Shown piece after piece: positions 7,096-61,347 of a DNA stretch of 64,000 nucleotides. The notes under the pieces were generated by a model. The model made no database searches. It was not told the origin of the DNA and worked only from the letters and a program-made list of their open reading frames with translations. The first letter of the stretch is position 1. The number at the start of each line of letters is the position of its first letter. The position numbers were made by a program, and so were the translations under genes. Location of the stretch: positions 1 to 64,000 of the forward strand of contig NZ_CP041661.1 of the NCBI RefSeq assembly GCF_007289895.1, in the 5' to 3' direction. The stretch comes from Catenovulum sediminis. Its GTDB lineage: Bacteria > Pseudomonadota > Gammaproteobacteria > Enterobacterales > Alteromonadaceae.

Positions 7096-7121
7096 GGTTT
7101 ACTTCTCTTACTAAACGCTTG

Positions 7122-8163: not shown

Positions 8164-8173
8164 ATTTTTTTCC

Positions 8174-9834: not shown

Positions 9835-10507
9835 ATATAATTCCTTCTGCAGCAACCAAACCACTTATCGACTTGTTGCTATCTGTAATTAAAGCTCTGA
9901 CGCTGTCACCAATTTCCCACCCAGCATCAATAGAAGTTCCTAGTGTTTCTAACGTTAAGCCCCTATTTTTAAGTACTATCGTTATTTGTTGCCGCGGAAA
10001 TATCTTCGGGCTAACAGCAACTGTCGCCTGTGTCAAAATTTGTCCTTTTCTTACATTTTTGCGTGTTACAAGCTCACTTAGTGTGTTCGTTAAAATGAGA
10101 GGTTCTGGAAGCAAAGCAGCCACGTCTAACTTCTTTAATTTAACAACTTCTTCAGTCAGCATACTCAGTTGAGGCAGATCTTGCTCAAATACCCAAACTT
10201 CTTTTAGCACCTTAATTTTCAGCCATGCTTGTGTTAATTTTCCTTCTTGGTCTTGCCAACTAAACTTGCTTCGACCCGAAATTAATGCACCCAACTCAAA
10301 TTTTGAGTGATTTGATGAATTAGGTTTGTTTACAGTGATAGGCTGGCTAATCACTGCGATAGACACTTCTTCACCGAGATACGCAAAATGTTTGCATACC
10401 TTTGCTTGCCACTCTATTTTGGTTGAACCAGTAAGTGGTTCGCTGTTAGTGGGTCCACAATTAAATTCAGTGCCTAACGCAAGACTTAATAAGCTTGATA
10501 ACAACAT
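9824..10507 (-). CDS. flgA: Flagellar P-ring assembly chaperone FlgA
   Basis: Periplasmic chaperone for P-ring formation. 227 residues with a short N-terminal signal sequence (MLLSSLLSLALG) and a C-terminal SAF domain (LVTRKNVRKGQILTQATVAVSP, then VRALITDSNKSISGLV), which is the FlgA hallmark. It lies 2 bases after flgG and overlaps flgH. In gammaproteobacteria flgA is normally apart, divergent from flgBCDE; here it is embedded as flgG-flgA-flgH-flgI, an order more common in delta- and epsilonproteobacteria and Leptospira. Confidence 0.92.
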   Translation of the reverse strand: MLLSSLLSLALGTEFNCGPTNSEPLTGSTKIEWQAKVCKHFAYLGEEVSIAVISQPITVNKPNSSNHSKFELGALISGRSKFSWQDQEGKLTQAWLKIKVLKEVWVFEQDLPQLSMLTEEVVKLKKLDVAALLPEPLILTNTLSELVTRKNVRKGQILTQATVAVSPKIFPRQQITIVLKNRGLTLETLGTSIDAGWEIGDSVRALITDSNKSISGLVAAEGIIYVH

Positions 10508-10509
10508 TT

Positions 10510-11283
10510 TTAACGTCGAATATTGTTGGTTGTTTCCATTATGCTATCCATTACTTGTACTAATCTGGCATTTAGTTGGTAAGCACGTTGGGCTAAAACT
10601 AGGCTCGTCATTTCTTCAACTAAATCGACATTTGAACCTTCAACAAATCCCTGCAAAATACTCCCGGCACCTTCTTCACCTGGCTTTTTGATAGTTGGAA
10701 GTTCCGATCCTTCTGCCAGGGTATATAATCCTTGGCCCATCGACGTCAGTGCTTGTGGATCATTAAAAGTAGCAAGGTTTAATTGTCCAACCTCAATTGA
10801 ATCTTGGTTGCCTGGCACTCTAATTTCGACAGAGCCATTTGGTAGAATAGTGATACTTTGTACATCCGGTGGTATATATATTGAATCACTCAACGGATAC
10901 CCAGATGCGGTAACTAGCCGACCATCCTGATTAAACGCCAACTTGCCAAGGCGGGTGTACGCAAATTGCCCATCTGCTAATTGCACTTCTAAAAATCCGT
11001 TACCACTAATTGCAAAATCTAACGCCTGACCCGTTGCTTGAATAGAGCCTGCTGAGAAATTTGTATAAGTCGCATCTAACTGTGTACCCAGTCCGGTAGA
11101 TTCACTGTCTGTTACAGATGCTTTTTGGTTAATTTCTTGGCCGCCCTTAACTAAGTCAGTAAAAGTCACACCTGATTTTTTAAAACCAGCAGTTTGCATA
11201 TTTGAGATATTATTTGAAATAACATCTAGCCATTCTTGTGTGGCTTTTAACCCTGTTTGGGCAATTTGCAGCGCTTCAATCAC
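10510..11283 (-). CDS. flgG: Flagellar distal rod protein FlgG
   Basis: Distal rod subunit. 257 residues, close to the usual 260. The N-terminal motif LDVISNNISNMQTAGFKKS and the C-terminal EGSNVDLVEEMTSLVLAQRAYQLNARLVQ are diagnostic, and the D1 region includes GNGFLEVQLADGQFAYTRLG. It is 2 bases from flgF and 2 from flgA. No oddity apart from its position in the operon. Confidence 0.96.
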   Translation of the reverse strand: MIEALQIAQTGLKATQEWLDVISNNISNMQTAGFKKSGVTFTDLVKGGQEINQKASVTDSESTGLGTQLDATYTNFSAGSIQATGQALDFAISGNGFLEVQLADGQFAYTRLGKLAFNQDGRLVTASGYPLSDSIYIPPDVQSITILPNGSVEIRVPGNQDSIEVGQLNLATFNDPQALTSMGQGLYTLAEGSELPTIKKPGEEGAGSILQGFVEGSNVDLVEEMTSLVLAQRAYQLNARLVQVMDSIMETTNNIRR

Positions 11284-11285
11284 AA

Positions 11286-11984
11286 CTATTTTCCTATTTG
11301 ATTTATTCCAGTCTTGAGCATTTCGTCGTATGTAGACATCGCTCTTTGCAATGTTTCTATGTGTCTTGTTTTTTCTATCACTCTGAGCATTTCAGCGGAT
11401 ACATCCACGTTTGAGGTTTCCAACGCCCCTTGTAAAATTTTGAAATTTTCTACTTCCTTTAATTGACCTTGGCTTGTATACAAACCGTCGCCAGCCGAGA
11501 ACAATTTTTTCGTGTTGGTTTGGTAAATAATGAACTGATCGACCATTTTCCCCTGAGAGAAGATTTGCCCCTTGACCGATATTTCGAGCGAATTTGCATC
11601 TAATCCTGTTGCATAACCACTAGACGTTATTACAGGGTCGCCAGCCTGTGTTACCAGCACTCCCCTCTCGTTGATTGAAAACTGGCCATTACGTGTCAAA
11701 TGGATAACACCGTCTTTATTAACCGCAAACCAACCTTGGGTTAACAATGCCAAATCAGTCAAGTTGCTGGTAATTTTTGCACTTCCCGATTTTAGATCTG
11801 TGGATTTGGTGAGCTCAACGCCTGAAATTAAATCAGAAAAATTGGAGCCAGATGTAACCTGAAGATCAGCCAACTGAGCCTTATAGCCAATTGAATTCAC
11901 GTTGGCCGTATTCTGCGCTGTAACATCAATAGCTTTGATTTCTGTCTGCATGACACTTGATAATTCGTTGATTAATTGACTCAT
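11286..11984 (-). CDS. flgF: Flagellar proximal rod protein FlgF
   Basis: 232 residues, rod subunit paralogous to FlgG. It has the N-terminal signature (DVTAQNTANVNSIGYKAQ), the core GWFAVNKDGVIHLTRNGQFSI and the C-terminal LETSNVDVSAEMLRVIEKTRHIETLQRA in separate blocks. It is shorter than FlgG and lacks its central insertion, which supports FlgF. The start overlaps the flhA stop by four bases. Confidence 0.92.
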   Translation of the reverse strand: MSQLINELSSVMQTEIKAIDVTAQNTANVNSIGYKAQLADLQVTSGSNFSDLISGVELTKSTDLKSGSAKITSNLTDLALLTQGWFAVNKDGVIHLTRNGQFSINERGVLVTQAGDPVITSSGYATGLDANSLEISVKGQIFSQGKMVDQFIIYQTNTKKLFSAGDGLYTSQGQLKEVENFKILQGALETSNVDVSAEMLRVIEKTRHIETLQRAMSTYDEMLKTGINQIGK

Positions 11985-14050
11985 GCTGGCTTACCCTGTA
12001 ACTGCAAATCCAAGTCAATGACAGATGCAGCTTGTACCTCGACTTGCTGACTCACTTCGTTGATGGACATCACGCTAATTTGGGGGACCGCTCTAGCCAA
12101 TAGGTCTCTAATTGATTTACGGATAGGCGCAGCACACAATAAAACGGGTTGGATATTTTGCGACAATAGCTTTTCGTATTCTTTTGCCACTTTTGCGATA
12201 AATTGTTCTAGCTCTTGCGGTAAAAGATCACCTGTAGAGCTATTTGCTTGTCCAGATAAAAACTTCCGTTCCAGTCTAGGTGCCAGAGTAATCATGTTCA
12301 ACTTACCATTTGAGTCTGCGAGCATGTTGCAAATGTGAGTACTCAGACCTGTCCTTACTTTTTCAGTCAGAATTTGTATGTCTTTGTTATGGCGGCCATG
12401 ATCGACCAGTATCTCTAATATGAGGCCTAGGTTTTTAACCGGAACGCGCTCTACGACTAACGCCTTTAACACATTTTGGATATCAGAATAAGATAATATT
12501 GCTGGAATAAGCTCATCGATAGTCGAGCCAATATCCTCTCGCTTACTTTCAACCAAATTTTCTACATCGTTACGTGACAAAAATTTATCTAAGTTAGCTT
12601 TGGTGATTTCTTGAATATGCGTGGATAACACAATCTCGGGCTCTACTAGAGTATACCCTGCTGAATGAGCAATAGTCTTTTGCTCTCGCATAATCCATTG
12701 GGCCGCTAAACCATAGGTTGGCTCAACGGTTTCTTCACCGTCTATTTTAATTTTTGCGGCGCCACCGTTAATGGCCAATAATTTATCCGGTCGAATAACG
12801 CCTTTTCCCATATCAATACCATGGATACAAATACGATATTGGCCATCTTTCAGTTTATTGTCGGTATTGATGGTTAGAGCAGGTACAATTACGCCAAATT
12901 TACTTGCAATTTGCTTCCTTAATAAACCGATTCGATTTTCCATATCTTGGGTTACGGTAAAGTACTCTTTTGCTATATTTTTCGATACAACCAGTTCGTA
13001 AGGTGCTATTTGCATCAAGGATTTAAACTCTACATCCAAAGGATCTGAATCTAAGCTATCATTGGTTTTCTTATTTGTTAACGCCTCAGCTTTATTGTTT
13101 CTAAATATCAACCATGACATGCCAAGCAGAGCGCAAGCCACTATCGCTACAGGGAAAACGGGAATGCCAGGCAATAACATAAAGATGCCTAAAGTACATG
13201 CAACTATTATTAATGTTTTCGGATGTGCTGAAAACTGACTAGTTATTTCCTGTGCCAGACGAGTGTCTGTTGCAGCACGTGTAATTATAATACCAGTTGC
13301 AACGGCTATTATAAGGGACGGTATTTGTGTAACAATGCCATCCCCAACCGTTAACAGCGTATATTGGTGTAACGCCTGCCCCCAAGGCATACCATTTTGC
13401 ACTATACCAATTGATAAACCGCCGATGATATCAATCAGTATAATAATGATACCTGCAATTGCATCGCCTTTAACAAATTTAGAAGCGCCATCCATGGCAC
13501 CATAAAAGTTAGCTTCTTTTTCTAGCTGGGCTCTGCGCATTTTAGCTTCATCTTGATCGATAAGTCCCATATTTAGATCAGCATCGATACTCATCTGTTT
13601 ACCCGGCATAGAATCTAATATAAATCGAGCAGCAACTTCCGCTACGCGCTGTGCACCATTAGTTACAACAACATATTGCACGACGATTAATATTAAAAAG
13701 ACGACTAAACCAATAACGTAATTACCGCCAACAACATGCTCTCCAACAGAGCCAATAACTTTACCCGCATCAGCATCGTTCAATATGAGTCGTGTAGCTG
13801 CAATATTAAGTGCTAATCGAAATAAAGTTGTCATCAATAGAAGTGACGGGAAAGTCGAAAACTCAAGCGGTTTTTCTGTATAGAAAGTAATCAGCAATAT
13901 CAACAAAGCAAATGAAAAATTGATCACCAACAAAAAATCTAATGTTGCTGAAGAGATGGGCGTAAACAGCACCATTAAGATACCAATCATCCCTGCTACT
14001 AATAAAAAGTCGTTTATGCCTGAAAACAAAGATTTAAAGGACGAATTCAT
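11981..14050 (-). CDS. flhA: Flagellar type III export gate protein FlhA
   Basis: Inner-membrane export gate subunit. 689 residues, normal length. The N-terminal half has about eight membrane helices with the conserved FHIPEP-type loop (RLALNIAATRLIL; DSMPGKQMSIDADLNMGLI). The C-terminal half is the cytoplasmic ring-forming domain (RMPVKNL-like ERVPVKNLGLILEIL). It overlaps flgF by four bases and flhB by one. With FliQ, FliR, FlhB, FliH, FliI and FliJ nearly all of the export apparatus is encoded here; only FliP is missing. Confidence 0.97.
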   Translation of the reverse strand: MNSSFKSLFSGINDFLLVAGMIGILMVLFTPISSATLDFLLVINFSFALLILLITFYTEKPLEFSTFPSLLLMTTLFRLALNIAATRLILNDADAGKVIGSVGEHVVGGNYVIGLVVFLILIVVQYVVVTNGAQRVAEVAARFILDSMPGKQMSIDADLNMGLIDQDEAKMRRAQLEKEANFYGAMDGASKFVKGDAIAGIIIILIDIIGGLSIGIVQNGMPWGQALHQYTLLTVGDGIVTQIPSLIIAVATGIIITRAATDTRLAQEITSQFSAHPKTLIIVACTLGIFMLLPGIPVFPVAIVACALLGMSWLIFRNNKAEALTNKKTNDSLDSDPLDVEFKSLMQIAPYELVVSKNIAKEYFTVTQDMENRIGLLRKQIASKFGVIVPALTINTDNKLKDGQYRICIHGIDMGKGVIRPDKLLAINGGAAKIKIDGEETVEPTYGLAAQWIMREQKTIAHSAGYTLVEPEIVLSTHIQEITKANLDKFLSRNDVENLVESKREDIGSTIDELIPAILSYSDIQNVLKALVVERVPVKNLGLILEILVDHGRHNKDIQILTEKVRTGLSTHICNMLADSNGKLNMITLAPRLERKFLSGQANSSTGDLLPQELEQFIAKVAKEYEKLLSQNIQPVLLCAAPIRKSIRDLLARAVPQISVMSINEVSQQVEVQAASVIDLDLQLQGKPA

Positions 14051-15120
14051 TAGCTATATACCTTGTGATTAGGCATAGATACAATCCAGCTATACACTTT
14101 AGCTACTTCGAGCTGTTGCTCATCTTTAATTGGCATACCAACCTTAACCAATTTATTTAATTTTCGGGCTAACATTTTCTTCCTTAAAATAGGAACCTGA
14201 TGCTTTCTAGCTTGCCGACATATTATTTTCGCTATCATGCCGCTCCCTTTTGTTAAAACAATTGGGACAGCCATAGATTGAGGACGAAATTTCAATGCAA
14301 CTGCAATATGCGTTGGGTTCGTTATAATCACATCTGCATCACCGACATTTTGAATATTGGACAATTTTGCCAATAACTCATTTTGATTTTTCTTAATTTT
14401 TGCTTTTACTTCTGGGTTACCTTCACGTTTTTTATGCTCATCTTTAACATCTCTTTTGCTCATTCGCATTTGTTTGGCGAATTCAAACTTACTGTACCAA
14501 AGGTCAAATAGCGCAAAAATTGCGAACACAACCAATAAACTCGTTAACAGTTTAATTAAAATGTGCTTCCAACTTACTAACACGTGATTTAATGACGCTT
14601 GAGTATTAGATAGAAGGATTGCCAATGAGGGTTTAAGCACGAGGTACACGACTGTTGAAAATACTGCTAACTTTATGATTAATTTAAACAGTTCTACTAA
14701 GGAACGTTTTGAGAAAATTTTCTTAAAGCCTTGAGCTGGATTTAGTTTTGAAAAATTTGGTTTGATAGGAAAAAAAGAGAAGGCTACGCCACCATATACA
14801 AACGAAATAGCAACGACAGAGATAAAACTAGCGGCAACAGCTATTAACCAAAAATGAGATAATTCCACCGTAAGACCAATAAAATTATTCATGAGCATAG
14901 TATCACTCTCTGCCATTTGATGTGCATTACCAATCCATTGAGCTAAAAGGCGCAAAGAAGTTTTAACCAACTCTGAGCCAAATACGTACAGGACCAATAC
15001 GATAGCGAGTAAACTAAAAAACGCTGGAAATTCTTGGCTTTTGGCGATTTGCCCTTTCTTTTTAGCTTCACGCAACTTATAGGGTGTTGCTTGTTCACTT
15101 TTATCGAATTGCTCTTCCAT
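14050..15120 (-). CDS. flhB: Flagellar export switch protein FlhB
   Basis: Inner-membrane export component that self-cleaves to switch from rod/hook to filament substrates. 356 residues. The N-terminus EQFDKSEQATPYKLREAKKKGQ is typical, four membrane helices follow (about residues 30-200), and the autocleavage motif NPTH is at residues 268-271, so the switch should work. It follows fliR by three bases and overlaps flhA by one base. Confidence 0.97.
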   Translation of the reverse strand: MEEQFDKSEQATPYKLREAKKKGQIAKSQEFPAFFSLLAIVLVLYVFGSELVKTSLRLLAQWIGNAHQMAESDTMLMNNFIGLTVELSHFWLIAVAASFISVVAISFVYGGVAFSFFPIKPNFSKLNPAQGFKKIFSKRSLVELFKLIIKLAVFSTVVYLVLKPSLAILLSNTQASLNHVLVSWKHILIKLLTSLLVVFAIFALFDLWYSKFEFAKQMRMSKRDVKDEHKKREGNPEVKAKIKKNQNELLAKLSNIQNVGDADVIITNPTHIAVALKFRPQSMAVPIVLTKGSGMIAKIICRQARKHQVPILRKKMLARKLNKLVKVGMPIKDEQQLEVAKVYSWIVSMPNHKVYS

Positions 15121-15123
15121 GAT

Positions 15124-15846
15124 CTATACCGTAAGTAAATTAGTCCATTGAGGGACAACCGACCTCAACATATGATGCAAAGCATCTACGGCGGGTCGGC
15201 TTAGCCAAATTAACATCAGTACACCCATTGCTATCTTCACGGGTAAACCAACAAAATAAATTTGAGCTTGAGGTAATGACCGGCTGACAAACGCCAAAGA
15301 TAAATCGATTAGCCAAAGTCCAATAATCACAGGGCTTGCAAATACAAAGCTCGTTACGAAGAAAAGGCCTAAAATTTTGTACCATTGTTCTGACAATACA
15401 AAGGGTTGAAATAGAGGTACATATTCAAATAGCAGATGCAAACTTTCTATTAGCTCTAAATGCACATTGAGCAAAAAAAAGATAGCAGCAACCATTAATG
15501 AAAATAACTGTGCGATTGGTGTGGCGACACTATTAGTGTTGGGATCAAATAACGAGCCTGCGGCAAAACCTATCTGCACATCAATTAGATGCCCCATAAA
15601 ATGAACTGCGGCGTATGCAAAGTGAAATCCTAAAGCTAATGTAGCACCAATCGCAAACTCGTTGACTAGTGCCCAAACAAGATCACGTTCAGGTTGTAAA
15701 GTGCCTGACGTATACCCACTTGCTAAACACAAAGCGATAGCACCAACAAATATAGTGCGAATGAGTACAGGAACTTGAGTAAAAGAGAACACTGGCAAGA
15801 TTAGAAAAATGGGCAGTAAGCGGAAACTAATACACAGAGTCAACAT
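15124..15846 (-). CDS. fliR: Flagellar export protein FliR
   Basis: Inner-membrane export gate subunit. 240 residues with about six hydrophobic helices. The family block GAxLALGFHFAYAAVHFMGHLIDVQIGFA and the conserved DPNTNSVATPIAQLF are visible in sequence pieces. It lies 3 bases after fliQ and 3 before flhB. FliR assembles with FliP and FliQ into one gate complex, so the absence of fliP nearby matters for function. Confidence 0.95.
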   Translation of the reverse strand: MLTLCISFRLLPIFLILPVFSFTQVPVLIRTIFVGAIALCLASGYTSGTLQPERDLVWALVNEFAIGATLALGFHFAYAAVHFMGHLIDVQIGFAAGSLFDPNTNSVATPIAQLFSLMVAAIFFLLNVHLELIESLHLLFEYVPLFQPFVLSEQWYKILGLFFVTSFVFASPVIIGLWLIDLSLAFVSRSLPQAQIYFVGLPVKIAMGVLMLIWLSRPAVDALHHMLRSVVPQWTNLLTV

Positions 15847-25784: not shown

Positions 25785-26087
25785 TCACGCAATTGCTTCA
25801 AGGCCTTTTTTTTCAGCTAGAGATAACATTTTTAATGCCGCACCTCTAGGCTTACTCTCACCTTGCTCCCACTTTTTGACCAACTTATCACTAACATTTA
25901 AATAGCGAGCAAACACTGGCTGGGAAAGATTATTTTTTTGTCTAAGGGTGCGCACTTGCTCGGCGGTAAACTCATGAACAGTTGTTAAACACAACGCATC
26001 GAACTTTCGCATTGTGGTTTTGTCGATAGCACCTGATTTTTGCAAGCCTTTTGCTGTTTTGTGCACTGCTTTTAAAATGTCACTCAT
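25785..26087 (-). CDS. HigA-like XRE-family antitoxin
   Basis: 100 residues. The C-terminal half is an XRE helix-turn-helix (EQVRTLRQKNNLSQPVFARYLNVSDKLVKKWEQGES in blocks), as in NadS/HigA-type antitoxins. The toxin gene precedes it and overlaps by four bases, the HigBA order. Expected role: binds and neutralises the upstream toxin and autorepresses the operon. Confidence 0.88.
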   Translation of the reverse strand: MSDILKAVHKTAKGLQKSGAIDKTTMRKFDALCLTTVHEFTAEQVRTLRQKNNLSQPVFARYLNVSDKLVKKWEQGESKPRGAALKMLSLAEKKGLEAIA

Positions 26088-26464
26088 AATTTACCTACCT
26101 CAATGAGCTCACCATTTTCAATTAATTGGTTAAGCTCATCCTGACTAAATTCTAAAAACTCTTTTGCTAATTCTTTTAGGGCTAATTTCTCTTTTGCGTT
26201 AATATTAGCTCTATCTCTTTTAGCAAACGCGTATAGGAAAAAATACTTATTTCCTAAAACTGCACCGACAATTGTGCGGAATCCTCCGCTTTTGCCTTTA
26301 TTTCCTGATGCGATACGCTTCTTGTAAACATTACCACCTAAATCAGCATCAAAGAGTCCATTATTCATTTCCTTACAAGCATTAATAAGATCATTGTCTG
26401 ATAGAGCTTCTTTTTTTGTTAAAGAAGCAAAAACTTTGGTCTTATAGATCAAAGTATACTCCAA
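26084..26464 (-). CDS. RelE/HigB-like toxin (DUF1044 type)
   Basis: 126 residues, fitting the RelE-like toxin family formerly DUF1044: NNGLFDADLGGNVYKKRIA, GFRTIVGAVLGNKYFFLYAFAKRDRANI and a C-terminal helix KLALKELAKEF. Such toxins are mRNA interferases, often ribosome-dependent. It lies upstream of its antitoxin (HigBA order) with a four-base overlap. It appears intact, and is the second toxin-antitoxin module on this flank of the galactan operon. Confidence 0.88.
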   Translation of the reverse strand: MEYTLIYKTKVFASLTKKEALSDNDLINACKEMNNGLFDADLGGNVYKKRIASGNKGKSGGFRTIVGAVLGNKYFFLYAFAKRDRANINAKEKLALKELAKEFLEFSQDELNQLIENGELIEVGKL

Positions 26465-26628: not shown

Positions 26629-28356
26629 CTAAAAACTAAACTTATTGCTCTGCATCAGTTGTTTTATTTGTTGTTGTTCAAGCGCGGTATCAAATACATA
26701 CAACTCGTCGACACTGCCTCTAAAGTATTTATTAGGTTCGTGCTCTGCTTCGTAACCAATATTTCGGCCAAGTGCGAGCGGGCGCGAATTTTTTTGAGTT
26801 ATTTTGGTATCGACTTTGGCAAAAGATTTACCATGTGTTTTTTCCAGTTCACCGTCTACATACATAAGCACATGTGTAGAAATATCTGAAGATTCGCCGC
26901 CATACAAAACAACCGCAACATGGTGCCATTGACCATCGCGCAGGTCTTTCGTGCCGACCACTTGGGCATTATAAGTACCAATTCTCAGCGCCCCTAAAGG
27001 CCCATTTTGTGGGTACGGATTAGGTGATATTTGCCAAGCAGAATAAAACTCTTGTGTGCCCCAACTGACAATACCAAACACTTCATGCTTTTCGATATCT
27101 TTTGGTACTTTAACCCAAAAGCTAACGGTTCTGGGCGCATCGCCTGCAATACCGGGAAAGTCTGTTTCTAGCCAATTGTTCATGCCATTAAAAGCAATGG
27201 CTTGTCCAAACACACCAACGGTTTGTGCTATCTCGCCCTGTCCTGCTGTCGTTTCTGGTGTTTTATCATAGGCTGGATATTGTTTACCTGAAATGCCTTT
27301 TCCGTTCGATAAAAAAGCACCCGCTTGCTTATTGCCAAATTGCTTGTCTAATTGCTTGTCTAATTGTTTGCTGTCAAATGACCAGTGCAAATAATCTGAA
27401 TTAGCAACGGATTTACCCGGTAAAGCGCGCATAAATAAGTTGGGGCTGCTTTTAATAAATTCGACTTTTTCATCTAAACTAAATGACAACGCTTGGTTTT
27501 TTCGCAGCATTTTATAAGCTTGCAGCTTTGATGAGCGGGCTTTAACTTCGCCTTCTAAAACATGTACTTGGCTGTCGCCTCTATCGTTTACATCGACTGC
27601 AAACTCAGTGCCTAAATCAATAATTTCAGAGCTGGGTGTATCCACTCTAAAACCGATGGCTTGTGGCGGTACTTTTGCCACCAATTTGCCTTTTTCTAAA
27701 ATCACCAAATCTTGCGAGCGAATATCTAAACGAATCGGTGCTTCGAGCAGTAATATCACCCCATTGCCCATTTTAATTTCACTGTAACCCGCATCCAGTG
27801 AAATTTTACCGCGGTTAATTGATTGGCCCACAACCAAATTATTCACGGCAGAAACAGCGGCGACTTTTGTCACAACCGCCAAATTATTTTGAACAAACAG
27901 AAAACTTGTAATAAAAAAACCAACAACAAATACCGCAACACTTGCAGCCAGTGCGTAGAAAGTACTGAACCAATTACGCGGCTGTTTTTTATACTGATTG
28001 AAGTTGGTAATTTTACCGGTTTCAGACGCCTGTTGAGTTGGCTTATGTTGAATCGGCTTATGCAGAATCGATTTAGGTGCCCTGCCTTGCGTAATAATTT
28101 TATTCATAACAGACGCCGAAAAGCCGGCCTGTTCATCCACACTTTGACTTTGCTGAGATGATTCAATTTCAAAACGGATAAGCCTGTCGTTAGCGATTAA
28201 TTTTGCCAGTTCTTGTTTTACATTCGGGTTGTTTTTACATGCTTCAATAAGCTGTGCTTGTACGTCTTTGCCAGCCAGATAATCGGCAATCAGGCGTTTC
28301 TGTTCTTTGCTGAGTGTTGAAGCTTGCGGGTTGTTATCTTGATCGGATGCACTCAT
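26629..28356 (-). CDS. Membrane FecR-LamG protein, probable anti-sigma factor
   Basis: 575 residues. The cytoplasmic N-terminus (1-130) resembles an anti-sigma region. A single membrane helix lies at about 133-154, a periplasmic FecR domain at about 205-275 (LEKGKLVAKVPPQAIGFRVDTPS; IDLGTEFAVDV), a linker, and a C-terminal LamG/concanavalin-like domain at about 385-565 (TVSFWVKVP; DGQWHHVAVVLYGG; YVDGELEKTHG; RGSVDELYVFD). It overlaps the sigma gene by one base (TAATG type), the standard sigma/anti-sigma coupling. FecR-LamG fusions are best known in Planctomycetes and Verrucomicrobia. The LamG domain may bind a polysaccharide and set sigma activity; that is inference. It ends the galactan operon. 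Confidence 0.88.
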   Translation of the reverse strand: MSASDQDNNPQASTLSKEQKRLIADYLAGKDVQAQLIEACKNNPNVKQELAKLIANDRLIRFEIESSQQSQSVDEQAGFSASVMNKIITQGRAPKSILHKPIQHKPTQQASETGKITNFNQYKKQPRNWFSTFYALAASVAVFVVGFFITSFLFVQNNLAVVTKVAAVSAVNNLVVGQSINRGKISLDAGYSEIKMGNGVILLLEAPIRLDIRSQDLVILEKGKLVAKVPPQAIGFRVDTPSSEIIDLGTEFAVDVNDRGDSQVHVLEGEVKARSSKLQAYKMLRKNQALSFSLDEKVEFIKSSPNLFMRALPGKSVANSDYLHWSFDSKQLDKQLDKQFGNKQAGAFLSNGKGISGKQYPAYDKTPETTAGQGEIAQTVGVFGQAIAFNGMNNWLETDFPGIAGDAPRTVSFWVKVPKDIEKHEVFGIVSWGTQEFYSAWQISPNPYPQNGPLGALRIGTYNAQVVGTKDLRDGQWHHVAVVLYGGESSDISTHVLMYVDGELEKTHGKSFAKVDTKITQKNSRPLALGRNIGYEAEHEPNKYFRGSVDELYVFDTALEQQQIKQLMQSNKFSF

Positions 28357-28955
28357 TATGAATACTCCTTGAGATTATTCTCAATACATTCACGTAATTT
28401 TTGCCGGATGCGAAACATACGCATTGTCATAGCAGAGTGACGTACACCGTGTTTACGCGTCAGTTCGGCGATGCTAAAACCTTCACCATAATGTTCTAAT
28501 ATCAATTGTTTTACTTTATCTGTTAATTTGCTCATGCAATCTTGCAGCGCGTTTACTGAAGCAACTTCGTTATCGGCTGTATAATGTGTGTCTATTTGCT
28601 CGTTTATCATCAATTCAAGTTCGCTATCGCTACCAATTGTTAGCGGTTTTAGCTTTCTGATATGATTTTTAAGTAAGTTTATCGCAATGCCCCGTACCCA
28701 CGCCCCAAAGGGGCGTGATTCGTCAAATTCATTCAGCTTGTTATAGGCCGTTATAAAGGTTTCTTGCGCTAAATCTTCAGCTTCGCTGGTATCATGCAAG
28801 CGCACCCGCAAAGCCGCACGTACTGAGCATTCGTAGCGTTTAACCAAGTGCGAATATGCGTTAGTCTCGCCGCTGCGCACTCGATCAATCAAGTTGATGT
28901 CATCTACGCTGTCCGCTTGTATACCCGCTTGCGCGTTTGCCTTAACTGCCGTCAT
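28356..28955 (-). CDS. ECF-type RNA polymerase sigma factor
   Basis: 199 residues. Region 2 (HLVKRYECSVRAALRVRL; EAEDLAQETFITAYNKL; FGAWVRGIAINLLKNHIRK) and region 4 with helix-turn-helix (SIAELTRKHGVRHSAMTMRMFRIRQKL) are clear; no region 3. It resembles the ECF groups paired with FecR-LamG proteins in the PVC bacteria. It starts five bases after the FAD oxidoreductase stop and is coupled to the anti-sigma gene. It probably activates this operon, and perhaps other glycan genes. Confidence 0.93.
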   Translation of the reverse strand: MTAVKANAQAGIQADSVDDINLIDRVRSGETNAYSHLVKRYECSVRAALRVRLHDTSEAEDLAQETFITAYNKLNEFDESRPFGAWVRGIAINLLKNHIRKLKPLTIGSDSELELMINEQIDTHYTADNEVASVNALQDCMSKLTDKVKQLILEHYGEGFSIAELTRKHGVRHSAMTMRMFRIRQKLRECIENNLKEYS

Positions 28956-28960
28956 GAAAA

Positions 28961-31246
28961 TTAATTCACTTCAATTTCAAATAAGCTTGCTGGCACAGTT
29001 TTGCTTGGGTGCTCTAGTTCAATTATCACTTCTGATACCTCGATTGCTTGCTCAAGTATAATTCGATTAACGGTTTGATAATTGCCTTTCACTTCATGCA
29101 ATATCGTGCCATCTGCAAGCTTAACCTTGTAATTTTTAACACAATAAGGCATTTCATTTTCTGGATGTTCCATTAAAACCGTTTCCAGCGCATGATCGGC
29201 ATCTGTATCAAAGAATAGGATTAATTCTTTAATTGATACAGCTTTTTCCCAGCTAAGACGAATACTTGGCTGCGGGTCGTTTAAATCAGCGACCCAAGCG
29301 TTACTTTTTAACCAGGGTCGTAAATGGCCATTCGCCAGATTATTAACGTTAAATGCAGCAATAGCGGGCGTAAATTTTAAAGCTAAGTTTTGCCCTTTTG
29401 GCCTGCGCTCTGGTGTCCAGAATTCAAATGCTTCAATTCCTGAATTTTCAGGTGCAGTTTGTTTACCTGTATTTGAAACCGCTTTATGTACTTTGTTAAA
29501 AACAGGCATTGTAGCTGTAATTAACTGCGCTGAAAGCGCGATAGATACCTGCTCGTTTGCATAAAACGTGATAAACGCATATTGATCTGCAAGATTAATA
29601 TCAGAAAAATCAAGGTGAATAATTTGCTCGCCGCTTACAAGCTCCACTTCAATCTCTTTTAAATTCTTTTCAGGGGTATAATTTTGCGCTTTGGCACTTA
29701 CACGCAACGCAACTTTTAACTGGGTTGGCCTGCTCGCTTTTACTTTAACAGTCACTTTAGGTACAGCGCCTTTTGTCAGCGGTACAAGTTGGGCGCAGGC
29801 TTGGCTTAAACGCATATATTCACCACTTGGGTAAAATTCAGACAGGTTAAGCTCGCTGCTTGCACTGATTTGTGCAAGTTTAGTTAAACCATTTTGTTTA
29901 TTAAGTGGAATACCGGGTATGCCATGGCCAAATTTGTTTAACCTGTATTGCAAATCAGTCATAAGTTCTGCTGATAACAACTGTTTGGGTGATAATTGTT
30001 TTTCAATACACATTGCCGCCGCAGTGCCAACGGCTTGCCCACCATGCGCACAAGTGATCATCACTCGGGTCGAGCCATATGCCATATGCGTCGCGCTGAT
30101 ATTGCGGCCTGCAAAATAAAGGTTGTCGATATCTTTACTAACAAAACAGCGATAAGGTATTTGATATACGCCTTTTGAATGAAACTGGCTACAGGCGGGT
30201 TGATCGCTGTAAATACCTTCCGATGGGTGAATATCAATCGCCCATCCGCCAAAAGATACCGCATCGTTAAACTCAACTTGTTCAACAATATCCTGCTGTT
30301 TAAGCATATATTCGCCATTAAAACGCCGGCTTTCGCGTTTGCCCGGCACGGTGCCCACCCACTCGAGTGTTAAGTTTTCAACGTCCTCAAACTTGCCACT
30401 ATTTTTTATATAATCCCAAATACCATAAACAATTTTCCACAACTCCCATTTAATATCTTCTGTTTGATAAATCGTGTCATGAATTCCACCGTATTCTATC
30501 CACCAGAATTTTATACCTGAGTCTTTACCTTGGATATTTTTTGAGCGTGGATTAGCGCCAATTTCTTGATGTGTGTAAGCAAATTTAGGCGCGGTGTATT
30601 TAACTGGTTTTTCTAATTTTTTACTGTAGAAAAATAGCGTATGGCCTAACAGTTGATTGTTTGCTTTCACTGGCGCAAGTTGCTCATCAAATTCATCGCG
30701 CGATTCCGCACCAATTCGAAAACTTGCACCGGCATTAAACGCAACTAAACCATCGCCTGTTGCATCGCAAAATAGTTGCGCGTTAATTTTATATTCTGTT
30801 GAGTTTTGGCTACAAAAAGCCTGCACACTGTCTATTGTGCGCTCATTTGATTTGTTTACTTGATACGCAGCGGTATTCAATAACAGCGTAATATTGGTTT
30901 CAGCTATGACTTTATCTAACAAAATCGCATCAAATATAATGGGGTTGCCATCGTTATTCACTTTTAAATTCTCAAGCATGATTTCGTCAATAATGCCGCC
31001 TTCGCGTGACCATCGGTTATTATTGCCCATGTGAGAAGTTGCACCCAATGCCCAAACTCTAACTTCACTCGACGCGTTACCACCTAATACCGGTCTGTCT
31101 TGTATTAATACCACTTTAGTGCCAGCTCTAGCAGCGGCGATAGCAGCGCATACCCCTGCTAAACCGCCACCTGCTACGACAAATTCAGTGGTTAATTCTA
31201 GTGTTTTGTTTTGTCTGGTTTGGGCGCTAAATTGCTCTACTAACAT
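28961..31246 (-). CDS. FAD-dependent oxidoreductase with C-terminal beta domain
   Basis: 761 residues. The Rossmann FAD motif VAGGGLAGVCAAIAAARAG at about 25-43 is followed by PVLGGNASSEVRVWALGA, typical of the FAD_oxidored (PF12831-like) family; CDATGDGLVAFNAGA and LYFAGRNISATHMAYGSTRVM are the second FAD-binding parts. From about residue 480 come beta-rich regions, the last (about 640-760) discoidin-like (SIRLSWEKAVSIKELILFFD). No signal peptide, so cytoplasmic. It overlaps the GH117 stop by seven bases. Substrate unknown; in this operon an oxidation of a galactan-derived sugar is plausible. Confidence 0.9.
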   Translation of the reverse strand: MLVEQFSAQTRQNKTLELTTEFVVAGGGLAGVCAAIAAARAGTKVVLIQDRPVLGGNASSEVRVWALGATSHMGNNNRWSREGGIIDEIMLENLKVNNDGNPIIFDAILLDKVIAETNITLLLNTAAYQVNKSNERTIDSVQAFCSQNSTEYKINAQLFCDATGDGLVAFNAGASFRIGAESRDEFDEQLAPVKANNQLLGHTLFFYSKKLEKPVKYTAPKFAYTHQEIGANPRSKNIQGKDSGIKFWWIEYGGIHDTIYQTEDIKWELWKIVYGIWDYIKNSGKFEDVENLTLEWVGTVPGKRESRRFNGEYMLKQQDIVEQVEFNDAVSFGGWAIDIHPSEGIYSDQPACSQFHSKGVYQIPYRCFVSKDIDNLYFAGRNISATHMAYGSTRVMITCAHGGQAVGTAAAMCIEKQLSPKQLLSAELMTDLQYRLNKFGHGIPGIPLNKQNGLTKLAQISASSELNLSEFYPSGEYMRLSQACAQLVPLTKGAVPKVTVKVKASRPTQLKVALRVSAKAQNYTPEKNLKEIEVELVSGEQIIHLDFSDINLADQYAFITFYANEQVSIALSAQLITATMPVFNKVHKAVSNTGKQTAPENSGIEAFEFWTPERRPKGQNLALKFTPAIAAFNVNNLANGHLRPWLKSNAWVADLNDPQPSIRLSWEKAVSIKELILFFDTDADHALETVLMEHPENEMPYCVKNYKVKLADGTILHEVKGNYQTVNRIILEQAIEVSEVIIELEHPSKTVPASLFEIEVN

Positions 31247-32472
31247 GTTTTTTTACTCTCTCTTGCATTTTGTTCACGCTGCTTTTTTTGTTGCGGGCTG
31301 AGCTTTTGGGCAAAATAAACGCTGGGGTGATGAATCACATCCGTTTCTTTCATATCTTTATTGCCGCCATTTTGCATTAAGTTGCAATCAAATCTGCCTA
31401 AAAAGCTGTGTTTGGTTGTCGGGTCAGTTTTATCGCTAAAGTGTGATATCCCCCAACTAATACCCTGTCCGTTGGCTGTTGTATCGCTATCTAAATTGGT
31501 AAAAGCATCTGGTACAAAAGGCCCTGCGGCAATTGGCATCAACGAGGTGACAGATGCAAGGTGAAAATTAACGCCATCATCCGCATATTGAATGCTGTTG
31601 TTTTCATTGCCGTTTCGAATAGCAAATGCCGCAATCCCTTGTTTAAACAGAAAATAAGTGGTTTCGTGACCGGAATTTAAAATTGGGTTTAGTGGGTGTT
31701 TGTGAAATGGCCCGAGCGGATCGTCCGCGGTCGCTAAACCATTCGCCACCAAATAGTCAGGCCGGTCGCCAAATGCTGATTTGTAATAAAGGTGAATTTT
31801 ACCTTTGTATACCAGCAAGTAAGGATCATGAATTGAAAACTGATCCCAACTCCCCGGCTCGCCATTTTCTACCACGATATGATTACATGGCGTCCAAGGG
31901 CCATCCGGCGAATCGGCATAAGACAAAGTGACCGGACAATGATCACCTTTAATTCCACTGGCTTGCATAAAGGCTTGGTAATACAAATAATATTTACCTT
32001 TCCACACTAAAATGTCCGGTGTCGAAACCGAACGCCAGCCGGGCTGGGGTTTAGCAGGACGAGCAATAGCGCAGCCTTGCTCTTGCCAGACAAATCCATC
32101 TCGACTGGTTGCATACCAAATTTCAGCTAAATCCCAATCTGTCGAAGGGATGCTGTCTGTGCATTTTTCAGCACCTTGAGGTGGTGTTTGTGTATCACGC
32201 TTGGTGTACCACATATAATAAGTATCACCGACAAGAATCACTTTAGACGGATCTCTGCGTGATACTGTGCCATCGTGCCCGTTATAATTAAATCCCACTA
32301 ATTCGGTATATTTAAAGCTGGTAAAAAGTGGGTTATCTTCCGGCCTTGGCGTTAAATAGTTGGCATATAGACGCGACATTGCCTGACTTAGCGCTCTGTC
32401 TGGCTTGGTTTGCGGAATATCCCAAGGAAAACTCCTGTTGTTATTATTATTGCTGTTGTTATTGGTACTCAT
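31240..32472 (-). CDS. GH117 family alpha-1,3-anhydrogalactosidase-like enzyme
   Basis: 410 residues, five-bladed propeller family GH117, whose characterised members release 3,6-anhydro-L-galactose from neoagaro-oligosaccharides. Family blocks: SRRDPSKVIL (Asp74), WYTKRDTQTPP, TDWDLAEIWYATSRDGF, GWRSVSTPDILVW, SIHDPYLLVYKGKIHLYYKS (Asp216), NSGHETTYFLF (His269, Glu270), AAGPFVPDAF. These acidic residues correspond to the GH117 active site. There is no signal peptide, so it is cytoplasmic. The N-terminus has an Asn-rich run (NNNSNNNNNR). It overlaps the symporter by 14 bases and the FAD gene by 7. GH43-like members exist as alternatives, but the match to GH117 is strong. Confidence 0.88.
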   Translation of the reverse strand: MSTNNNSNNNNNRSFPWDIPQTKPDRALSQAMSRLYANYLTPRPEDNPLFTSFKYTELVGFNYNGHDGTVSRRDPSKVILVGDTYYMWYTKRDTQTPPQGAEKCTDSIPSTDWDLAEIWYATSRDGFVWQEQGCAIARPAKPQPGWRSVSTPDILVWKGKYYLYYQAFMQASGIKGDHCPVTLSYADSPDGPWTPCNHIVVENGEPGSWDQFSIHDPYLLVYKGKIHLYYKSAFGDRPDYLVANGLATADDPLGPFHKHPLNPILNSGHETTYFLFKQGIAAFAIRNGNENNSIQYADDGVNFHLASVTSLMPIAAGPFVPDAFTNLDSDTTANGQGISWGISHFSDKTDPTTKHSFLGRFDCNLMQNGGNKDMKETDVIHHPSVYFAQKLSPQQKKQREQNARESKKTC

Positions 32473-34153
32473 ATTTGACCTCAGCTTTCTCTTGCTTGTT
32501 AAACTTCACCAACAAAAACCCACCCAGCGTTATTACGATTAAGGCCATTGCACCAACAACAAATGCCCCTTTTTCAGCCAGCAAGGCTAAACAAAATAAA
32601 ATCAGGCCAGTGACTAAAATGCCAAAACCAATCACTCTGTTACCTTTAGAGTTATCTGCTTCATGCTGCCCAGCATCCTGCTGCTGCGCGACATCTTCTT
32701 TTTGTTGCTGTGATTTTAGGTAGCTTTGATATAACGGCGCGGGTTGCTTTTGGCTGCGATAAATAAGCTCAAATACCGTTAATATTGCAACGGGTGCCAG
32801 CACCCCGAGCAGCATTTCTTGCGCGCGGTTTAACGAAAAGTCGAATAACCAAGGGGTTATAAATTTGAATGTGCCGTTAATGGCCAGCGTTAAAATTGAG
32901 GTGGTTAAAATAGAAAAGCCACGCTGATATTTTGAAAACAACAACCAGATCGGCGGTAAAAATAACGCACCACCAGTTAATGCAGCCATTGTCATTACCA
33001 CTTCAACCACGCCGCCCATATAAGGCACCAGCAGCGCAATCACTATGGTTACCAAACCCAATAAAATGGTTGACAAGCGGCCGACTCTAACTAACGTTTT
33101 TTGATTGGTGTTGGGATAAAATTGTTTAAAAACATCATTGGTAATAACACCCGCCGTAATATTTAACGCCGTATTTATTGAACTTGAAGTGGCGAATATC
33201 ATCCCGCCCAGCATTAAGCCCAGCATGCCAACAGGCAATACCTCTTTACACATTAAAAGGTAAGCACCTTCGTTATCTGAACCGGCTAAATCAGGGTTGA
33301 GCGCGCGATAAACCATAGGCGCAAGCATCCAGATAACCGGGCTAATAAGATAAAGGCCGCCAAACAACCAACCTACGTTTTTTGCATCTTGTGGGGTGGC
33401 AACACAGGTATATCGCTGAATATAAGCCCAGTTTCCGGCAATAAAAAACAGATTGTATAAGGCAAACGCGAAAATAAAGCCCCAAGAATATTCACCGCTG
33501 GTTAATGCAAAAAAGTTTTCAGGTGCTTTGTCGATAAAATTTGCAACACCGCCAATTTCATTCAGCGATAATGGCACAACCACTAAAACAGCTGCAGTTA
33601 ATACCACAAATTGCAATATATCTGTGACGATTACTGCCCATAAACCGCCCACAGCTGTGTAGAGTAAAATAAGCACACCTAAACCAATTATGGTGTTGGT
33701 AATAGGTAAGCCGGTTGAAACTTCCACAATTTTTGCGACTGGGTACAAAAACGTGCCGGTTGAAAAGGTAGCGATTGCCAAAAAGATACTGGTATACACT
33801 TTTTGCACGCGCCGGCCTAAACGTGCTTTAATAAATTCGGCCGCGGTTAATACATTTGTTTTTTGCCATTTTGGCGCAATAAAAAAACCAATCACCAGCC
33901 CCGCAATACACATAGTCCATTGTATTGTTACAGCAACCCAGCCTTGCGAATAAGCAATTGATCCCCAGACAACGAATGTGCCAGCTGAAAAAAAGCTCAT
34001 AAAAAGAGATAACCCACTCATCCACCAAGGCAGCGCACCACCTGCTGAAAAATAGGACTTCATATTTTTACCCGAGCTGGAAAAGCTTAAACCACAGCCC
34101 ACCACCAGCAGGGTAAATATCACTATGACACTAATATCAATACTATTCATCAT
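32459..34153 (-). CDS. Sodium:solute symporter (SSS family)
   Basis: 564 residues with about 14 hydrophobic helices. Family features: the N-terminal FSSSGKNMKSYFSAGGALPWW, the GTFVVWGSIAYSQGW core, and the helix LYTAVGGLWAVIVTDILQF. Such SLC5-like carriers import sugars or sugar acids with Na+. Placed between secreted GH16 and cytoplasmic GH117, it probably brings the oligosaccharide or its products into the cell. It lies 16 bases after GH16. Confidence 0.93.
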   Translation of the reverse strand: MMNSIDISVIVIFTLLVVGCGLSFSSSGKNMKSYFSAGGALPWWMSGLSLFMSFFSAGTFVVWGSIAYSQGWVAVTIQWTMCIAGLVIGFFIAPKWQKTNVLTAAEFIKARLGRRVQKVYTSIFLAIATFSTGTFLYPVAKIVEVSTGLPITNTIIGLGVLILLYTAVGGLWAVIVTDILQFVVLTAAVLVVVPLSLNEIGGVANFIDKAPENFFALTSGEYSWGFIFAFALYNLFFIAGNWAYIQRYTCVATPQDAKNVGWLFGGLYLISPVIWMLAPMVYRALNPDLAGSDNEGAYLLMCKEVLPVGMLGLMLGGMIFATSSSINTALNITAGVITNDVFKQFYPNTNQKTLVRVGRLSTILLGLVTIVIALLVPYMGGVVEVVMTMAALTGGALFLPPIWLLFSKYQRGFSILTTSILTLAINGTFKFITPWLFDFSLNRAQEMLLGVLAPVAILTVFELIYRSQKQPAPLYQSYLKSQQQKEDVAQQQDAGQHEADNSKGNRVIGFGILVTGLILFCLALLAEKGAFVVGAMALIVITLGGFLLVKFNKQEKAEVKYEYQ

Positions 34154-34169
34154 TTAACCCCAATGTGCT

Positions 34170-35495
34170 TTATGGTTTGCGCTGATAATAACGAACCCAA
34201 TCAATTTTCATGCTCGTGCCATCAATTGCATCCGTTACCGGTCCCGCAATATCGGCTTTTAATATTGCTAAGCTGAATAAAATCGTTTGTTCGCTAAAAC
34301 AAACATCATTGCGCATGGTGTGAAATAGCTCGCCATCAAAGTAGAACTTAAAATAGTCTTGATCCCACTCTAATCCGTAGGTGTGATATTCTTGACCAAA
34401 ATTCGCCACTGCTTCAGCTGCTTGATATTTTTTAAGTTCAATCCACGCTTTGCCATTGTGATACTCAAGCACATAGTCTGATATCAAATTACGGTAAATG
34501 CCTTGAGAGTCGCCATACTCTTGCTCCCAACCATTTACAAATTGAATCGCACCAATATTTTTAGGTGTATCCCACTCTAATTGCAGCCATTTTTGACCAT
34601 GTTTTTCAGACACCCAGCGGGTGTTCAACTTGCCGTCTATGGCAAATTCTTCTTTTGATGGAAGCTTGTTAAATACCCCATTAGTCGTTAAATGAGTATC
34701 CGCAGACAGCGCATGATTTAACGGGCTGTTTTGCGGTAAGTCGTCTTTCGCAGACGGATATCCAGCCGATGAAGGTTCAAATACCCTAAATTCAGAAATA
34801 TGAATAGACGCGGGATTCAGCGAAGTTAAACGCACTTTTTTTGCTTTAATCGCTTGTTTTAATTCTATTGTGTGATCGGGCTGCCCTAACAGTGTCCAAT
34901 GTTTTTGGTCGTCACTGTGACTAATTCGACCATTGGGTAAGGTGTATTTGTCTGTCCAGTTATGTACATTAGTATTAATAATATTAGGGTAATGACCTTC
35001 GTTTATATCTATCTCACACGCTTTTTGCCCTTCATCAACCCCTTGTTTTGGCCAGAACCAAAATGAATTATTGGTGCCGTATGCTTCAGCATATTTAAAT
35101 CTTGCTTCAAAATAACCATAACCAAAGGTGCGTTTACTCCAGACATTTCCGGTTGTCCAATCTTGACCACCGCGGGTTTCTTTAATGCTTTTTAAGTGTA
35201 AAACACCCTCTTTCACTTGCGCATTTTCACGCCAGCGACTACTGTAAACCCAAGGGTTTTCCGTTGGGCCATTTTGTGAAATCCAATTTTTATCTAGCTG
35301 TTTATCTGGGTAGTTAAATTCGTCCTGCCAAACGAGTTGCCATTGAGACAAGTCGATACTTTTTTTACCTTTAAATTGAGTCGAACTAGCCGATTGATTG
35401 CCTTGCGTATCTGTATATGTATGTGTATCTGCATATGTGTTAAATCCAAAACCAGCGATAACAACAGCAAACGCCGTCTTTAAATAAAGTTTCAT
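34170..35495 (-). CDS. GH16 glycoside hydrolase with inserted discoidin-like domain
   Basis: 441 residues. Signal peptide about 1-22. GH16 begins at about residue 50 (WQLVWQDEFNYPDKQLDKNW), with VWSKRTFGYGYFEARFKYA and NNSFWFWPK; catalytic motif EIDINE at 161-166 with both Glu and the Asp. GH16 is interrupted at about 192: 196-240 reads like the C-terminal half of an F5/8 type C domain (KAKKVRLTSLN, SIHISEFRVFE) and 255-358 like its N-terminal part (FAIDGKLNTRWVSE; WLQLEWDTPKNIGAIQF; YVLEYHNGKAWIEL). GH16 resumes at 367 (FGQEYHTYGLEWDQDYFKFYFDG). Family activity includes beta-agarase, porphyranase and carrageenase; the operon suggests an agar/porphyran-type galactan. Confidence 0.9.
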   Translation of the reverse strand: MKLYLKTAFAVVIAGFGFNTYADTHTYTDTQGNQSASSTQFKGKKSIDLSQWQLVWQDEFNYPDKQLDKNWISQNGPTENPWVYSSRWRENAQVKEGVLHLKSIKETRGGQDWTTGNVWSKRTFGYGYFEARFKYAEAYGTNNSFWFWPKQGVDEGQKACEIDINEGHYPNIINTNVHNWTDKYTLPNGRISHSDDQKHWTLLGQPDHTIELKQAIKAKKVRLTSLNPASIHISEFRVFEPSSAGYPSAKDDLPQNSPLNHALSADTHLTTNGVFNKLPSKEEFAIDGKLNTRWVSEKHGQKWLQLEWDTPKNIGAIQFVNGWEQEYGDSQGIYRNLISDYVLEYHNGKAWIELKKYQAAEAVANFGQEYHTYGLEWDQDYFKFYFDGELFHTMRNDVCFSEQTILFSLAILKADIAGPVTDAIDGTSMKIDWVRYYQRKP

Positions 35496-35769
35496 ATTTT
35501 TCTCGTTCTCATTAGCCAGTAAATTTATTTATATGCTGTTCATTGTGTTTAACTGCTCAAAGTGACACATAAAAATTTTCGTATTTCTGATAAACCTAAC
35601 CAGGTAAAAATGGAATGGATGAAAATTGAATAGATAAAAATGGTGATAGGTACCGAGCTAAATAGGGCTTGATTGAATTGGAGTTGATGAGCTGTAATAG
35701 TGAGTTGGATTTCAGAAGTTGCAGTCTAGGGAGGGTTCTCAAATCCTTATAGGTCAAGCGTTATATTTT

Positions 35770-36063
35770 TCAGAGCGCGCGGTTAATATCCATACTTTTA
35801 TGTAATATTCTTACAATTAAAATTTGGTTAGTTTTATGCTCTTTATAATATATTACGTGGCTACCTTGAGGGCGTTTTCTGTAACCTTCTTTAATATAAT
35901 CGCAACTAACCCCTAGCATAGGTTCGCTGGCTAGTTGACGGAAAGTATTGTCTAACTGTTTTAAATAATCATTCCTTTGCGATATTCCCCAAGTTAATTG
36001 AGTATATTTGGCTATGTTAATTAAATCGTTTTTGGCTTTTCCTGATAATTCGAATTTCGACAT
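35770..36063 (-). CDS. parE: ParE-family toxin
   Basis: 97 residues, RelE/ParE fold: FELSGKAKNDLINIAKYTQLTWG, YLKQLDNTFRQLASEPMLG and the C-terminal GSHVIYYKEHKTNQILIVRILHKSMD. ParE toxins poison DNA gyrase. The start overlaps the parD stop by one base (TAATG), antitoxin first. It appears intact. Confidence 0.92.
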   Translation of the reverse strand: MSKFELSGKAKNDLINIAKYTQLTWGISQRNDYLKQLDNTFRQLASEPMLGVSCDYIKEGYRKRPQGSHVIYYKEHKTNQILIVRILHKSMDINRAL

Positions 36064-58735: not shown

Positions 58736-58736
58736 A

Positions 58737-59078: not shown

Positions 59079-59085
59079 AACATTC

Positions 59086-61332: not shown

Positions 61333-61347
61333 TGCGATTAGCGCCCC

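Follow-up and report, generated by a model that had tools for sequence, protein, structure and literature searches.

Gene content and conservation of the operon

The window analyzed here (a 64,000 nt stretch of Catenovulum sediminis DNA) contains a six-gene operon. The genome (4.87 Mb) is in two contigs, and the window lies on C2, which has 759,041 bases. All six genes are on the minus strand, in the order GH16, SSF symporter, GH117, FAD oxidoreductase, sigma factor and anti-sigma factor. Two of the junctions are gaps of 16 and 5 bases, and the remaining three are overlaps. A sequence-only reading of this DNA had placed the sigma/anti-sigma pair at the end of a GH16/GH117 operon, which this tight array bears out; it made no mention of the symporter or the FAD oxidoreductase, nor of the promoter-like element described below.

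The GH16-type glycoside hydrolase (bp 34170-35495) contains an F5/8-type C-like insert, the motif EIDINE and what appears by eye to be a signal-peptide-like start. It matches Glyco_hydro_16 in Pfam (E-value: 6.8e-15), with F5_F8_type_C_2 below the cut-off, and GH16 structures in the PDB. It is followed by a sodium:solute symporter (bp 32459-34153; Pfam SSF, E-value: 3.8e-36) and by a 3,6-anhydro-galactosidase relative (bp 31240-32472) in which a signal peptide is not obvious by eye. This protein is GH43/117-like in Pfam and is assigned to GH117 based on its best solved relatives (4u6d, E-value: 3.3e-164; 4ak5, E-value: 7.3e-56), which include the anhydro-alpha-L-galactosidases 4ak5-4ak7. The fourth gene encodes an FAD-dependent oxidoreductase (bp 28961-31246; Pfam FAD_oxidored, E-value: 1.4e-96).

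Counterparts of the anti-sigma gene, all with full-length frames, were found in seven of the eight Catenovulum genomes searched (C. sediminis included), the exception being G005. The six-gene order is complete in four other Catenovulum genomes (G001, G003, G004 and G006), while the operon of G007 has no FAD gene. In Gayadomonas, the GH16, sigma and anti-sigma genes are retained and are followed by an agarase gene. Psychrosphaera and Agaribacter carry an extra lactonase-fold gene ahead of the sigma gene, and the Agaribacter operon has two GH117 genes. The added gene encodes a lactonase-type beta-propeller and occupies the interval between the FAD oxidoreductase and sigma genes (L064:8173-9396 and L065:8139-9425). 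Counterparts throughout most of the genus and a gene order that reappears in other genera show that the arrangement is not due to chance.

Several other gene groups lie on the minus strand of the window. Downstream of the anti-sigma gene (bp 25785-26464) are a RelE-family toxin gene (PF06296, E-value: 2.4e-42) and an HTH antitoxin-like gene. A probable flagellar cluster is located at bp 1115-15846, where four scanned ORFs match FHIPEP, YscJ_FliF, FlgI and a T3SS/flagellar-type ATPase. Chondroitinase-B-like and alginate-lyase/heparinase-like genes at bp 54614-63576 form a separate cluster, probably for alginate.

Domain structure of the sigma and anti-sigma factors

The sequence-only reading was correct as to the position of these two genes, and Pfam analysis confirmed their domain make-up. 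The ECF sigma factor (bp 28356-28955, minus strand, 199 aa) contains Sigma70_r2 (E-value: 1.5e-14) and Sigma70 r4_2 (E-value: 9.7e-07). It resembles TIGR02989, the Rhodopirellula/Verrucomicrobium family, with an NCBIfam score of 122.8 bits, just below the cut-off of 124.55; the next family scores 81.3 bits. The sigma and anti-sigma genes overlap by one base (TAATG).

The anti-sigma protein (bp 26629-28356, minus strand, 575 aa), whose closest named relatives are from Catenovulum species, consists of cytoplasmic helices, one transmembrane helix, a FecR domain and a LamG domain. Hydropathy analysis identified a single strong hydrophobic stretch near aa 129-155 (bp 27892-27972). The FecR domain was detected at aa 216-272 (bp 27541-27711; E-value: 3.4e-08, 34.2 bits against a cut-off of 24) and the LamG/concanavalin-A-like domain at aa 400-565 (bp 26662-27159; Laminin_G_3, E-value: 1e-17). 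In an AlphaFold model built from 17 sequences (mean pLDDT 74.3, pTM 0.52), the N-terminal region is helical and is followed by a long helix at aa 129-155; FecR forms a beta region at aa 160-302, and the LamG region, beta-rich between approximately aa 362 and 555, closes with a helix. As Lys/Arg residues precede the transmembrane helix and none are found just after it, we read the protein as oriented N-in/C-out. In a Gram-negative cell, this topology would have LamG face the periplasm. A profile match between the cytoplasmic part and RseA (1or7) was non-significant (E-value: 1.2). No RsgI domain was found among the Pfam matches of either protein at an E-value of 0.001, the partner sigma factor being of the Sigma70_r2 plus r4_2 type and not SigI. 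Similarly, Pfam did not detect DUF4880 or FecR_C in the anti-sigma protein; both were found in E. coli FecR.

FecR domain and TonB receptor coupling

The FecR region matches the fold of the putative anti-sigma factor BDI_1681 (4m0h/4m0n). When aligned with E. coli FecR, Gly249-Thr250 of the window protein (bp 27607-27612) corresponds to Gly181-Thr182, given as the self-cleavage site in a study that also includes an RseP step in FecR processing (PMC8144685). The Gly-Thr pair is kept in 24/24 aligned sequences, the window protein included, a conservation that was partly selected for because loci were found with peptide patterns adjoining this site. Two other papers state that Gly-Thr cleavage in FoxR is non-essential for activation (PMC9249621) and call these residues nonconserved (PMC7186176), respectively. 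The C. sediminis genome encodes one M50 site-2 protease. By homology with these regulators, the chances that a cleavage cascade operates in sigma release appear evenly balanced. A FecR protein also need not be a plain inhibitor, since the N-terminal 59 residues of E. coli FecR are required for sigma activity (PMC7406223).

There are 49 plug-domain matches in the C. sediminis genome. The nearest to the pair is at C2:66247, and no plug-domain (TonB receptor) gene was found within 37 kb. This genome has four further FecR-domain genes. Two of them (C2:252758 and C1:984647) are located 1-2 kb from a plug-domain match; the remaining two start like secreted proteins. It had been suggested that the pair needs neither a TonB receptor nor FecA. 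This holds for coupling, as the nearest plug domain is 37 kb away, but not for uptake across the outer membrane, which would still be needed.

The LamG domain as a putative sensor

Seven orthologues encoded in GH16 operons are 58-80% identical to the window anti-sigma protein in LamG and 56-78% in FecR, compared with 26-42% in the cytoplasmic part. The L067 protein, also encoded near a GH16 gene, follows the same pattern (51%, 48% and 24%, respectively). LamG thus equals FecR in conservation and greatly exceeds the cytoplasmic part. In a fold search with LamG, the top matches were AbnA, an arabinanase, and domain 4 of this enzyme on its own (5hon, E-value: 2.7e-9, TMt 0.72), the ligand of 5hon being reportedly an arabino-oligosaccharide. 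A profile search also identified AbnA domain 4 (E-value: 6.3e-07), along with an S-layer protein domain (E-value: 1.2e-14). Many other lectin-like sandwiches match as well, so that a ligand cannot be read from the fold.

LamG is probably a sugar sensor. The sequence-only reading had likened it to the carbohydrate-binding domains of RsgI and proposed that it could sense galactan directly. The sensor itself is plausible for three reasons: its fold matches a carbohydrate-binding domain, it is strongly conserved, and relatives of the anti-sigma protein have other sensor-like ends. The sensing of galactan outside the cell does not carry over. RsgI is a Gram-positive protein whose sensor is exposed outside the cell, whereas a periplasmic LamG would read imported oligosaccharides.

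An alternative that we consider unlikely is that the pair regulates the operon and LamG binds a partner protein or envelope polymer (for example, a periplasmic enzyme or TonB receptor) rather than a sugar. Proteins or lipids are also among the ligands of LamG-type folds, and any of the 49 plug-domain matches could act in trans; ordinary FecR-type regulators are governed by contact with a TonB transducer (PMC7186176; PMC11637429). However, FecR_C, like a nearby plug-domain gene, is absent, an arabinanase carbohydrate domain is among the top fold matches, and relatives carry CBM96 ends or CBM4/9-like ends below the Pfam cut-off. Sugar sensing is the preferred reading.

LamG sequences of related proteins fall into two blocks. 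The first has eight members (43-66% identity): six linked to GH16, GH117 or GH50 genes, the L069 protein, and the L066 protein, with linkage to genes for FAD oxidoreductase and sulfatase. The second comprises three fucosidase/DUF1552-linked proteins (47-55% identity). Identity between blocks is 17-21%, even inside Gilvimarinus and Agaribacter, each of which holds both blocks. This pattern was not counted as proof that LamG tracks substrate, since two old paralogous families account for it equally well.

A promoter-like element shared by the operon and separate genes

Alignment of DNA upstream of nine orthologous operons revealed a single block of strong conservation, GTGTCA or GTGTCG, and a second block, ACAWW, 16 bases downstream. 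The spacing is identical at orthologous operons of four genera. In the window, this putative ECF promoter (TGTGTCR-N16-ACAWW, bp 35542-35570, minus strand) is located 47 bp ahead of the GH16 start codon; no sigma-70 consensus was matched upstream of the GH16 gene on its strand (bp 35496-36000). Across 42 loci (831,382 bases, with some regions duplicated), GTGTCR-N16-ACAWW has 26 matches, 25 of which precede a gene or cover the first codons of its longest frame and one of which is intragenic. The distance to the start is mostly 30-90 bp (169 in L044), assuming a true start downstream in those cases in which element and longest frame overlap (e.g. the L044 agarase, L045, L052, L053, the L065 agarase and L143).

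When restricted to 19 separate loci (423,413 bases), the scan gave 18 matches, compared with a mean of 1.8 and a maximum of 6 in 60 rounds of shuffling. Spacers of 14, 15, 17, 18, 25 and 30 bases gave 1, 6, 2, 1, 2 and 2 matches, respectively, and the reversed motif gave 0. The 18 matches are not independent, as there are orthologues among them, and nine are the GH16 promoters that defined the motif. The other nine precede three paralogous sigma genes (L052, L053 and L054), a sulfatase gene (L054) and four beta-agarase-type genes (L044, L046, L047 and L065), except for one within an ORF (L056). Pfam detected Agarase_CBM in three of these agarases, and the L065 member was recognized by 62% identity to that of L047. 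The G007 agarase behind the element matches beta-agarase 4bq2 (E-value: 3.8e-246); the enzyme family is GH50.

In the C. sediminis genome, TGTGTCA-N16-ACAWW occurs at nine sites (reversed control: two), of which eight are on C2 (binomial p = 2.7e-6): at the GH16 operon, two sulfatase genes, two sigma genes, one split agarase gene and two intra-ORF positions. The ninth site is on C1. The split gene (L143:2765-5133, in the G000:C2:705765 region) consists of two overlapping frames and is intact in G007. Six genus genomes besides these two have one or two sites each; four of their GH16 promoters read AGTGTCA, and that of Gayadomonas reads TGTGTCG. Outside the genus, 60 sites were found in 52 genomes, with no more than four per genome. 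Only tight forms of the motif are informative, because loose forms are no commoner than their controls: WRTGTCR-N16-ACAWW (28 sites in C. sediminis against 26 for the reversed control) and the longer pattern TGTGTCACTT-N13-ACAAT with 2 mismatches (17 against 22) were both rejected.

The strict motif was absent from the 41-375 bases examined upstream of each of the sigma pairs of L071, L072, L049 and L073 (two pairs, the operon of the first starting beyond the locus edge). Pairs without it in these stretches include fucosidase- and DUF1552-linked ones. Near-matches that differ in the spacer or second block occur in L048, L051, L057, the L064 agarase and L067.

The element thus has the form of an ECF-type promoter, with two conserved blocks and a fixed spacer ahead of both a sigma operon and candidate target genes. 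Its presence at the operon and at paralogous sigma genes makes it very probable, as had been supposed, that the sigma factor controls its own operon, and a regulon of the GH16 operon and agarase genes is likely. It is improbable that the pair is a passenger at the operon end while another regulator controls the galactan genes through the TGTGTC site. Recognition of the element by the sigma factor is our deduction, and paralogous sigma factors share the element; on the other hand, the element is bipartite and promoter-like with a constant 16-base spacer, it is mostly located 30-90 bp ahead of a start, and it recurs at paralogous sigma genes whose loci are separate and have different neighbors.

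Paralogous pairs and related anti-sigma proteins

C. sediminis carries two further sigma/anti-sigma pairs, both on C2, with sigma factors that are 42-44% identical. Both paralogous sigma genes, like the window operon, bear the TGTGTC element. The first paralogous anti-sigma protein has a sub-threshold CBM_4_9 match and its gene adjoins a sulfatase gene. The second has no Pfam match but aligns with the tandem C-terminal region of the first, and its gene adjoins esterase and alcohol-dehydrogenase-like genes. In this sister class, CBM_4_9 was below the Pfam cut-off in three of seven scanned proteins, FecR was detected in none of the seven, and Gly-Thr was not seen in the alignment; the L053 and L057 proteins are too short in the FecR region to hold such a domain. 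FecR is therefore not needed family-wide. Among ten scanned FecR-type proteins, the C-terminal end is LamG or, in three, CBM96, and those of L077 and L081 had no C-terminal Pfam match.

Comparison with known regulatory systems

In Clostridium thermocellum RsgI/SigI, autocleavage is followed by RseP action. RsgI, like the window protein, is an anti-sigma factor with one TM helix, and it combines an extracytoplasmic domain that cleaves itself with diverse carbohydrate-binding sensors at the C-terminus (PMC12203970), features for which FecR and LamG are the candidate equivalents in the window protein. In contrast, the window pair has a FecR domain, a putative sensor that is periplasmic and a TIGR02989-like ECF sigma factor; the sigma factor and self-cleaving domain of RsgI/SigI are of other types. 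FecI/FecR and FoxI/FoxR share the FecR domain and the Gly-Thr at the equivalent place, and RseP takes part in the processing of FecR in E. coli (PMC8144685), but the window pair has no DUF4880, FecR_C or coupled TonB transducer gene, and LamG stands there instead. That the pair is an ordinary iron-type FecI/FecR cell-surface signalling pair, beside the galactan operon by accident, is scarcely credible, for beyond the common FecR domain and Gly-Thr bond it has neither of these E. coli FecR domains nor an adjacent plug-domain gene, its sigma factor scores best with TIGR02989, and its operon linkage is retained across genera.

Bacteroides also uses ECF/anti-sigma pairs to control Gram-negative glycan genes, often at loci with SusC/D transporters (PMC10766802), whereas the window locus has no coupled receptor gene and the anti-sigma protein itself bears the putative glycan-binding domain. 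FecR-LamG or FecR-CBM96 proteins of Planctomycetes, Verrucomicrobia and Lentisphaerae have the same architecture, and the sigma family is named after these phyla, but their sigma factors form a separate clade. No description of a regulon or promoter for these pairs was found among the papers that the searches listed. Similarly, titles and abstract beginnings in the open-access literature gave no description of a FecR-LamG and ECF sigma system for polysaccharides. LamG, FecR and sigma factor all occur in PMC10434189, and two Zobellia studies (PMC5613140 and PMC5698469) had no bearing on the pair.

Proposed mechanism

On balance, we favor a model in which the pair works as a transmembrane switch for the use of red-algal galactans. 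In the resting state, the N-in/C-out anti-sigma protein would hold the ECF sigma factor at the inner membrane through its cytoplasmic helices. Galactan-derived oligosaccharides in the periplasm would be bound by LamG, which would expose or loosen the FecR domain with its self-cleaving Gly-Thr bond. By homology with FecR and FoxR, processing in the periplasm followed by action of the site-2 protease RseP would free the sigma factor, which would initiate transcription at the observed TGTGTCR-N16-ACAWW elements. One target would be the GH16-SSF-GH117-FAD-sigma-anti-sigma operon itself, which would thus be under positive autoregulation; the others would be separate beta-agarase genes of the GH50 type. 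Sister pairs whose ends are carbohydrate-binding-like in other ways may use a similar element to control their own genes as well as sulfatase genes.

More tentatively, and at slightly less than even chances, this would be a widespread Gram-negative counterpart of RsgI/SigI, made up of single-span anti-sigma proteins whose glycan-binding ends in the periplasm are interchangeable (LamG, CBM96 or tandem CBM4/9-like), each paired with a TIGR02989-type ECF sigma factor. In marine Gammaproteobacteria, these would read TGTGTC-N16-ACAWW at their own operon and at separate algal-polysaccharide genes, and imported oligosaccharides would be sensed without a TonB transducer. To our knowledge, how marine bacteria outside Bacteroidetes recognize seaweed polysaccharides is largely an open question; it becomes testable with the concrete candidate receptor, promoter sequence and target genes supplied here.

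Distribution and origin

The anti-sigma protein is rare in the class sample: at an E-value of 1e-30, it was found in one of 369 genomes, that of C. sediminis itself. In 13 genomes chosen for holding a relative, and with single-domain matches counted, there were 4-65 profile matches per genome in seven from Planctomycetes, Verrucomicrobia and Lentisphaerae and 2-11 in six gammaproteobacterial ones. These counts fit the earlier statement that FecR-LamG fusions are mainly a trait of Planctomycetes and Verrucomicrobia. With up to 65 such matches in one genome, our results suggest a function for many lectin-ended FecR proteins of these phyla and of Lentisphaerae.

The accompanying suggestion of transfer was not upheld in its recent form. 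In a 31-row sigma tree, which takes in only fetched loci and whose root is weakened by the very long branch of the FecI outgroup, the window sigma factor groups with those of Catenovulum, Gayadomonas, Psychrosphaera and Agaribacter (99/98), and eight planctomycete-verrucomicrobial-lentisphaeral sigma factors form their own clade (99/97). The nearest sigma factors in the tree are from marine Gammaproteobacteria, and recent planctomycete transfer into Catenovulum was rejected based on the separate clades. An older exchange is possible given the rarity of the protein in the class and a Verrucomicrobia MAG with 47% LamG identity to the window. This MAG contig (L069) encodes a FecR-LamG protein and is short (4,041 bases), so that mis-binning is possible. 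In Gayadomonas and Agaribacter (L049 and L072), FecR-LamG pairs adjoin DUF1552 genes and cytochrome/PSD genes of planctomycete type, so that these Gammaproteobacteria show an arrangement resembling that of planctomycetes.
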